From contig CAMOEC010000004.1 of NCBI GenBank assembly GCA_946611795.1, positions 1-45,192 on the forward strand: a DNA stretch of 45,192 nucleotides, read 5' to 3'. The notes under the pieces were generated by a model, which was not told the DNA's origin, did not search any database, and was given only the letters and a program-made list of their open reading frames with translations. This DNA is from an uncultured bacterium (GTDB taxonomy: Bacteria > Patescibacteriota > Gracilibacteria > Absconditabacterales > Absconditicoccaceae). The position numbers and the translations under genes are program-made. Shown one piece after another: positions 4,603 through 7,491 of the stretch; position 1 is the first letter of the stretch; every line of letters starts with the position of its first letter.

Positions 4603-5052
4603 CTAATAATCAAGAACATAGTTCAGAGGTCAGATATTGGTGCTATTAACTATCATATCTGCTCAAAATTCTCAGGTTTTTAACCTCCATCAATGTTCAA
4701 CCGCTTTATCTATGAAGTAATTATAGATTTTTTCTGCTTCTTTATAAGGTGCTGAGTGAACAAAATCTAGCTTAGTTCCTTTTAAACTTCTTCCGTATAA
4801 TGTAAAATTAGAAATAAGTAAGACTTCTCAATGTATGTCTTCTAATGTAGTATTGATGTTTCAGTCTTCTCATGTTAAACATTTTAGAATAGGAATCTTC
4901 TTTACAATTCTAGATACTTTATCTTCATAATTATCTAGATCCTCAGTACTTATTCATAGATAAATAATAATTCATTTTCAGATTTCTCTATGAATATTTT
5001 CTTCTTTAATATCTAATATCGCTTTATCTACTTGTTGGATTACGAGTCTCAT
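4603..5052 (-). CDS. dtd: D-aminoacyl-tRNA deacylase
   Basis: 149 aa, the usual DTD length, starting MRLVIQQVDKAIL as in the family. DTD hydrolyses D-aminoacyl-tRNAs and Gly-tRNA-Ala, rejecting L-amino acids with a cross-subunit Gly-cisPro motif. Here the SQFTL motif reads SNFTL, and the Gly-Pro motif reads NIGPLN where NxGPxT is usual, so both signatures are slightly altered. The enzyme acts in translation quality control in the cytoplasm. Its clearance of misplaced glycine is notable in a genome that has reassigned UGA to Gly, although DTD is common in bacteria and no special link is shown. Confidence 0.9.
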
Positions 5053-5227
5053 AATATTGAATAATAATAAATTTACTCAATATTATTTAAGAGCTAATCA
5101 ATATCAATCAATAAAAATCTAAATTACACATTGTGATCAAATACTTTTTTCTTTATAAACTAAATGACAAACAAATAGTACTATTTACTAACTGGTAAAT
5201 TGACATAATTAAAAAGTATTAAAAAAT

Positions 5228-5255
5228 TTGCAAAATATTTTTTTTGATGTATAAT
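5228..5255 (+). promoter_or_regulatory. Promoter of the long non-coding RNA
   Basis: TTGCAA, 16 bases, TATAAT. It predicts a start near 5262, just before a stretch of about 690 bases with no usable reading frame that ends in a terminator. Confidence 0.6.
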
Positions 5256-5261
5256 AATAAC

Positions 5262-5948
5262 GTCATCAAGAAATAATAAGTAATTTCATGATGGAACTAG
5301 AGAGATCATTAATACTGTCTATGTAATGAAAAATGTACTTCATTTGCTTTGATTATTATTGCTGAATGTGCAAATCATTCTATACTATTAATTAAGAATA
5401 TCACTTAGTTAATTAATTTCTTTACTTTTATGAAGTAGGGGAGCGATAATCGAGGTTGAAATTTCTCTTAAGGTAACCTTATATGATTGAGAGCCTTTAA
5501 CTAATAAATTAAACGACTATTAGTTTAATGAGAAATCGATTCATGATATCTAATATTGGTTCTTATTATTAATTATTCCGTTTTAAAATAGTTTTAAGCA
5601 TTGCTATAGCCTTTAGCAGTTAACTTATTAGTCTATTATGAAATATTAATACAATATTAGCGATGTTATGAAAATAATGAATTTAGGCATTTTGATTTTA
5701 ATATTGTAGGTTAGAAATATCTATCTTTCCAAAAATAAGGTCTTTGGAATAATCTATCCTTCTCTTAATGAATAATTAAGATAAAAAATATTAAGATTTG
5801 CTATCTTGTGTTAATCAAAAATTTAGGGTAGCCTAATGATACATAAGATACTATATTTGTTAATAGCTTATATAGCAGTCATAGGGCATCTACATAGACT
5901 TAATCTCTATGGGATTTGAAGTGGATATTAGTTCACTTCTTTTTTTTA
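5262..5948 (+). ncRNA. Candidate large structured non-coding RNA, class unknown
   Basis: The 900 bases between dtd and the flippase hold no open frame of useful length under code 11 or code 25. The segment begins after a good promoter and ends at a T-tailed hairpin. Local hairpins can be read by eye: CATCA/TGATG near 5263-5295, ATTTGC/GCAAAT near 5343-5373, AACTAATA/TATTAGTT near 5500-5525, and CCAAA/TTTGG near 5730-5750. It is locally less AT-biased around 5436-5480. I looked for signatures of RNase P RNA, tmRNA, SRP RNA and group I/II introns and found none. Function is unknown, and folding and conservation have not been computed. Confidence 0.5.
5918..5948 (+). terminator. Terminator of the long RNA, possibly bidirectional
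   Basis: GAAGTG / CACTTC hairpin followed by nine T. The convergent flippase gene ends 11 bases further on, so it may serve both. Confidence 0.75.
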
Positions 5949-5958
5949 ATTTGAAAAA

Positions 5959-7491
5959 TTATTTTCTTATATTATCAATTTCAGACTTTAATCTTTTTAG
6001 AATATTGAAATTACATGCTCCTACAATAAGATAGAAAACTACTCATATTAAACAAATATCAACTACCATAAGCCATCTATTTCAATCTACATCAATAATA
6101 GAACTTTTTCAATAATAGATTCATAATCAGAGGATAATAAAGAGTATAATATTCTTTATGATGAACTTATAATTAAATGTTAAGCTAAATTTCTCTTTTT
6201 TTAATAGATATAATGATAATCACCAAGTATAAATGGTACTTAATCAGAATGCGATTCAAGCTCAATAAATACCTATGGTATTAATCAAAATATAAGAGGA
6301 AATTATAGTAAGTAAACAAGCAATTCAAGTAATATAAACTCTTTCTCTTACTTTTCACATTCAAGCTAATACACTATAATTAAATCATCAGAGTTGACTG
6401 AATAGTAAGAATATTCAAGTAATCTCAAGTAATATTCAAGAAGTTAGATATTGTTTACCAAATAATGCTATTGAGATTTCAGGTCAAAGAGAAATTAAAA
6501 GTGTAGAAAAACTTAACAAGAGAACTGAAAAATAATTATAGAAGAACGAATAGAGGAGTCATAGTTTATAATTATCCTTTTTCTCAATTAGTTCAGATAC
6601 AACAGGGAAGATTAATCCCATTATTGGTCAAATTAAGCTTGTTCAAATATAAAACAAACTCAAAAAATTAGAATAATATCAAGCATTCTCAGCTCAAATA
6701 AAGTATAATACCATTTGCTGAATGATTTGACCAAAGAGAGTACCTATTCAAGATCATATAAAAGACCGCAAAGCATATTTAATATATTTTTTGAGTACTC
6801 CCCTATCAACCTTGAATTCTCACTGCATAATATCACTGCGATATTTTTTATAGAGAATAAATCATACTAAAATTCATACAGCTGTTCATAAAATCCAGTT
6901 TAAGCTGTACCATTCGATATTTCATCTTCATGAAAAGAAACAGAAGATAGTAAAAAGAAGAATAAACACCCATTGAATAAAAGGTATGAGTTGGGTTTCA
7001 AATGTTCTCTGAAAAGATCTAAAAATAGTTTGTAATACTTGAAAGATATTATTCAAAAAGAAATATACACAGAAGTATTTAAGTATTAAAGCAGAATGTT
7101 CACTTTGGAAATAATGTATAGCCAACCAATCACTTCAGAACCACAATCATGCGGCTATAAGAAATCATGTAGCAATTTGCACTCAAAGACTAAGCCAAAC
7201 CGTTGTCTTTATATTATTATATTCCTTTTTAAGATAGAATCTTGGTATAAAATACTGTAGACTTTCTGTTAATCCAAGATCATTATAAGTATATAAGAAG
7301 GTTACCAATGAAACTATACTATACATTACTCCAAAATCAGCAACAGAGACTTCTGGTGAATTGGATATAAATAGCCTAACAAAGTATCATAATGGTGCTG
7401 TTAAATATCAGAAAAAATAGAGCCAAAATCATCTTTGTATTAGCTTTTTACTAAGTGTTTCATCTGTAAGAAGATTTGTTTTTTTAGTCAT
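5959..7491 (-). CDS. Polysaccharide/oligosaccharide flippase (Wzx/MVF-like)
   Basis: 510 aa, hydrophobic throughout, with about 14 membrane segments. The layout is that of lipid-linked oligosaccharide flippases: a charged start, then FGVMYSIVSLVTFLYTYNDLG, a long loop around residues 200-240, and GSGIGTLFGQIIQQMVLYFI at the start of the second half. Such proteins translocate undecaprenyl-linked glycans for capsule, S-layer or cell-surface polymer assembly. No glycosyltransferases adjoin it, although an FkbM methyltransferase lies 3.4 kb away. It runs towards the long RNA. The subfamily cannot be settled without a search. Confidence 0.75.

Follow-up and report, generated by a model that had tools for sequence, protein, structure and literature searches.

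The window analysed here is a stretch of 45,192 nt, and it reads in NCBI translation table 25 (TGA=Gly), as long genes open only with TGA read as glycine. Table 25 is the code of Gracilibacteria/SR1. Between dtd (5052..4603, - strand) and a flippase gene (7491..5959, - strand) lies a gap of ~906 nt that contains no gene in table 11 or table 25. These gene-free bases, put at ~900 in a preliminary description of the locus, are thus confirmed, as is the -35/-10 pair that it placed at the head of a ~690-nt stretch. The two promoter elements are separated by a spacer of 17 nt, and the predicted transcript starts with GTCATCA at 5262 and ends at 5947, giving a length of ~686 nt (Table 1). The claimed terminal hairpin is present (stem 5918-5925/5932-5939), while the run that follows it contains eight T (5940-5947) rather than nine. 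With its -35/-10 promoter, 5′ hairpin and intrinsic terminator, 5262-5947 is, as judged from the DNA, a complete non-coding transcription unit, transcription itself being inferred.

About half of the copies of this RNA have an inverted repeat resembling ACCAGTTCTnAACTGGT at 73-95 nt upstream of their 5′ end. The repeat occurs with five or fewer mismatches in 10 of 20 upstream regions, compared with 1.6% of shuffles, and its carriers besides the window are L006, L008, L009, L012, L014, L017, L018 and L076. This repeat may be a regulator site.

Table 1. Features of the RNA locus in the window, and surface-type proteins near RNA copies at other loci (last row, positions within those loci).
Feature	Position	Strand	Remarks
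Half-degenerate inverted-repeat site ACTATTTACTAACTGGT (motif ACCAGTTCTnAACTGGT in several paralogues)	5180..5196	+	82 nt upstream of the 5′ end; 4 mismatches in this copy
-35 TTTGCA	5227..5232	+	present in every copy (TTTGCA/TTGACA)
-10 TATAAT	5250..5255	+	TATAnT invariant in 19 leaders
Non-coding RNA gene, ~686 nt, subfamily A	5262..5947	+	homology, covariation, no conserved ORF
5′ leader hairpin UCAUCA...UGAUGG	5263..5294	+	helix 1; 95% of cells paired
boxA-like GAUCAUUAAUA	5304..5314	+	matches the 16S-leader boxA-like site of two relatives (GATCATTAATA)
Closing (leader-trailer) helix, 5′ strand UGUCUAUGUA	5316..5325	+	helix 2; 99% paired; compensatory GC/AU and CG/UA changes
Hairpin GAAUG-UGCAAAU-CAUUC	5364..5380	+	loop nearly invariant; also in genus g4 relatives
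3′ domain, outer helix UAUCUUGUG/CAUAAGAUA around the hallmark hairpin	5802..5850	+	helices 19 and 20
Hallmark hairpin UUUAGG-GUAG-CCUAAU	5821..5838	+	NNNG-loop hairpin recurs in other subfamilies
Closing helix, 3′ strand UACAUAGACU	5891..5900	+	helix 2
Intrinsic terminator GAAGUGGA...UUCACUUC + U8	5918..5947	+	helix 23; compensatory changes
Surface-type proteins	L092 1697-3949; L095 1819-3015; L096 3039-5549; L098 78-1682; L100 9090-10493		

The earlier description of the RNA as an orphan is incorrect, since it counts among about seven paralogues in its genome and belongs to a family-wide superfamily. A DNA search of its own genome gave six copies at ~70% identity (67-72% to the window copy), the others lying on C31, C45/C44, C20, C67 and C15, and the leader model gave a divergent seventh locus on C19 (L154). 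The C45/C44 copy is a single copy split by a contig break, and the C15 copy is cut at a contig end; the C44 match was rejected as an extra copy, as its sequence is identical to that of the C45 copy where the two overlap across the break. Five copies and one of the C19 type are found in G002, one copy in G001, and one close relative in G022, which belongs to another genus. Copy-to-copy identity is mostly 65-82%, and it reaches 83-90% within the orthologous set L005, L009 and L017. The promoter, 5′ end and terminator are common to all full-length copies. Across 12 copies there is no conserved reading frame on either strand in either code, and a coding role in code 11 or 25 was rejected, as there is no long frame either.

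The predicted transcript has a folding energy of -159 kcal/mol, compared with -129.1±5.4 kcal/mol in dinucleotide shuffles (z -5.5, 0 of 20 shuffles as low). A consensus structure of 174 pairs emerges when 12 full-length copies from four genomes (633-716 nt, one genus plus one outgroup sequence) are aligned. The check for compensatory changes in homologues, put forward in the preliminary description, was strongly passed: 86 of the 174 pairs show at least one pair-keeping double change, compared with 40.9±3.9 in shuffles, and at most 30 pairs have compensatory double changes when the partners are slid. By direct counting, 94.4% of cells are paired (84.0±0.4% in shuffles), and pairing falls to 39-46% with slid partners. 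The covariation score is 0.375 versus 0.183±0.007 in shuffles, none of 500 shuffles being as high. We note that deriving the structure from this same 12-copy alignment gives it an advantage over the slid versions, although the margin is wide; the test is not tree-aware. In the long-range helix between +55-64 and the 3′ end, both sides change from GC to AU in four sequences and from CG to UA in two. A pseudoknot AUUUGC/GCAAAU is not supported, because the loop is constant whereas its upstream partner changes. The homology of the RNA family and its predicted structure are established by covariation among the aligned copies.

The promoter followed by GTCATCA was searched for in 49 genomes of the family, and a leader model was searched against 242 genomes of the class. 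These searches added long, strongly folded, non-coding transcripts in genera g4, g19 and g21, and at least four genera of the family have more divergent relatives, in part arranged as two-unit operons. The 15 members tested, which come from several subfamilies (three from subfamily A), have fold z-scores of -4.3 to -8.1. Bodies differ strongly between subfamilies. A hairpin YNNAGG-NNNG-CCUNNR near the 3′ end is present in most other subfamilies, with a stem that changes by compensation (for example UUUAGG/CCUAAA, UUCAGG/CCUGAA, UUCAAG/CUUGAA); no such hairpin was seen in the g19 members. Within a three-member subfamily (L156, L159 and L160), 23 pairs change on both sides with all three sequences pairing. 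The superfamily is likely restricted to one family, because the leader model at E 1e-5 finds no match in 379 other genomes across the phylum; members with divergent bodies may have escaped, as only a few candidates in each genome are scored by the first-look filter. Partial R2 matches outside the family lack the leader.

Several other transcripts came to attention in these searches. Two structured-RNA units per apparent transcript are seen at L165 1066-3100 (numbered on its reverse strand, G031:C6), L105 5982-7370, L166 592-2100 and L167 1085-2640 (numbered on its reverse strand). Such two-unit transcripts occur in g4 genomes, with a boxA-like site also before the second unit, and in L165 three tandem promoter-like sites lie upstream of both units. 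L071, with its 5′ end at 221, has a rod-like transcript of ~180 nt with the same promoter, a GTCATCA start, its own terminator and no clear boxA. L158 (G014:C17) was rejected as an RNA gene, as it is an ORF; this small ORF, pilin-like by eye, follows the same promoter type, hairpin and GTATCTTTA motif.

The leader of the RNA consists, in order, of a strong promoter, a hairpin, a boxA-like element G(A/G)UC(U/A)UUAA, and a long-range leader-trailer helix around the body. After the 5′ hairpin, the boxA-like site is GAGATCTTTAAYA in most g1 copies, GATCATTAATA in this copy and GTGGTCTTTAAA in g4, and the closing helix follows. The pattern G[AGT]TC[AT]TTA is found in 24 of 27 leaders, compared with 1.8% of shuffles; all eight leaders of tmRNA and RNase P lack it. 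As this pattern was drawn up with the sequences already in view, the shuffle rate serves as guidance and does not amount to a formal test. Since no rRNA genes of the RNA's own genus were found in the two assemblies searched, the leaders were compared with those of other genera of the family. The 23S leader in these relatives shows an A-rich stretch upstream, a -35 of TCTTGAAA type, a -10 and a hairpin, after which comes a boxA-like site (GATACTTAACAATAA in g19, GTTCATTAACAG in g6, GTTCATTAAAAG in g10). Similar sites precede 16S (GATCATTAATAGG in g19, GTGGTCTTTACC in g4), followed in g19 by the helix closing 16S. The rRNA operon order is 23S-5S-16S in G007, G011, G027 and G035 (L111-L114, L117-L120).

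BoxA is the NusB-S10 site of rrn leaders, described together with the leader-trailer helix for Escherichia coli pre-rRNA, where boxA is necessary and sufficient for Nus recruitment (PMC10250234). The RNA shows two features of an rrn-type unit, a boxA-like site in the leader, with the function of the motif inferred, and a leader-trailer helix. NusB-S10 loading with Rho resistance is a further mark of such units, and a NusB gene is present. We note that boxA is short and may be partly paired with the 3′ end in the mature fold. We consider it probable that the RNA family is made by rRNA-type antiterminated transcription, with transcription and Nus-factor use being inferences.

We propose that an rRNA-class promoter would initiate the transcript, and that the nascent leader hairpin and boxA-like element would recruit NusB-S10 and other Nus factors. 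Owing to this proposed recruitment, RNA polymerase could pass through a long, untranslated and highly folded transcript. The leader-trailer helix would then close the RNA body, the intrinsic terminator would release the transcript, and the product would accumulate as a stable RNA or RNP. We favour, with reasonable confidence, the reading that these loci form a new superfamily of trans-acting structural RNAs with rRNA-type antiterminated transcription and a stable RNA or RNP as product, in which transcription, Nus recruitment and abundance are inferred. As for the product itself, an architectural scaffold, oligomer or particle in the manner of OLE, ROOL and GOLLD is the best of several guesses and a tentative one, as there are no data for a specific biochemical role. 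It is conceivable, if short of an even chance, that one lineage of code-25 bacteria keeps a second class of rRNA-operon-like loci, tandem, boxA-controlled and paralogous, whose large structured RNAs form an abundant RNA particle other than the ribosome.

The boxA-like sites and rRNA-class promoters before nearly every unit could also be explained by a regulatory decoy, in which abundant boxA-bearing RNAs titrate NusB/S10 or RNA polymerase and tune rRNA synthesis, a logic like that of 6S RNA. However, a decoy does not need ~600 nt of conserved, covarying architecture, and the strong differences in body between subfamilies also speak against it, so we regard it as unlikely.

Neighbouring genes vary among the paralogues. 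The exception is the set L005/L009/L017, for which G000 and G001 have a common neighbour on one side and G001 and G002 on the other. The varying neighbours, together with one orthologous set keeping its own, argue for a role in trans. Synteny of the dtd-flippase interval, from which the preliminary description would have aligned homologues, is lost in the related genome G002. This loss, the multiple copies and the breaks of own-genome contigs within copies might suggest that the RNA-coding element is mobile or selfish, with a structure that helps it to spread. Mobility was judged less likely because the copies are old, given their identities, and phage and plasmid collections contain nothing similar to the RNA; moreover, an orthologous group has kept neighbours in three genomes, and no terminal repeats or associated enzyme were noticed, without a systematic search. 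We therefore consider such an element quite improbable. A single viral-contig 20-mer match (L116), the only one of its kind, seems to be a coincidence within coding sequence. Co-oriented genes directly follow some paralogues (an ABC transporter in the case of L009 and L017), as would be expected of a cis-acting 5′ leader or riboswitch, but every full-length subfamily A copy has its own intrinsic terminator, the flippase beside the window copy is convergent with the RNA, and the neighbours are not constant, which leaves this explanation very little room. The terminators and the convergent flippase fit a vertically inherited, putatively trans-acting RNA and not a cis-regulator. Mutually similar surface-type proteins are encoded within a few kb of five RNA copies. 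They were judged not to be a partner of the RNA, as they are S-layer-type by eye and probably an abundant family, the frequency of which is unmeasured.

The covariance-model check against Rfam, including OLE, GOLLD, ROOL and RNase P, gave no match at gathering score for the window or for any of 19 loci. In the window, the best match at E≤10 has an E-value of 2.6, and all are far below gathering scores; in 13 other loci at E≤0.5, there is nothing for OLE, GOLLD or ROOL and no convincing match. The window has no match to SSU or LSU rRNA models and no tRNA, and neither the window nor the 13 other loci match a group I or group II intron model. RNase P is a separate single gene (G000:C36), and tmRNA is a separate gene (G000:C52). 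The earlier judgement that RNase P, tmRNA and introns do not fit is therefore borne out, and its proposal of a large structured RNA outside the known families is supported by the absence of an Rfam family and the abundant compensatory change in homologues. That the RNA is a known one in divergent form (RNase P, tmRNA, intron or rRNA fragment) would agree with the size and the A+T-rich divergence, but this is scarcely credible with RNase P and tmRNA as separate genes in the same genomes and no Rfam family convincingly matching any copy. In the literature on non-coding RNA in Gracilibacteria/Absconditabacteria or structured RNA in CPR bacteria, no such family is evident at the level of titles and abstracts, the coverage of which is incomplete. 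We have hardly any doubt that these large structured RNAs form a genuine new family with multiple copies.

To our knowledge, bacterial RNAs of such size and complexity number only a handful, most of them without a settled function. What sets this family apart is its several paralogues per reduced genome, its apparent use of the rRNA expression machinery and its two-unit operons, which together suggest a heavy investment in RNA by a small-genome bacterium. With pre-rRNA (rrn) units it shares the promoter type, the leader hairpin, the boxA-like element and the long-range helix right after boxA, as well as tandem units with a boxA before each and, in one case, several promoters. However, its body is not rRNA and matches no rRNA model, and the RNA has its own terminator, is multi-copy and evolves fast. 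Among boxA-driven non-ribosomal transcripts are CRISPR arrays, which are long and untranslated and can carry a boxA. Targets of Nus factors have also been reported outside rrn (PMC5725501), and the new RNA would resemble them in this respect, whereas its product is the conserved structured RNA itself. Like OLE, GOLLD and ROOL, the RNA is in the range of 600-900 nt, has an ornate covarying structure and no ORF, and is of unknown function. It differs from them in having no Rfam match, ~7 paralogues per genome in its own genus and an rRNA-type leader. GOLLD and ROOL occur in phages or prophages, in many cases close to tRNA islands, whereas the new RNA has no sign of phage, tRNA-island or fixed protein-partner linkage. 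OLE, GOLLD and ROOL form homo-oligomers, GOLLD and ROOL as cages (PMC12286853). A member of none of these groups, the new RNA is closest in manner to OLE, GOLLD and ROOL and in gene architecture to pre-rRNA.
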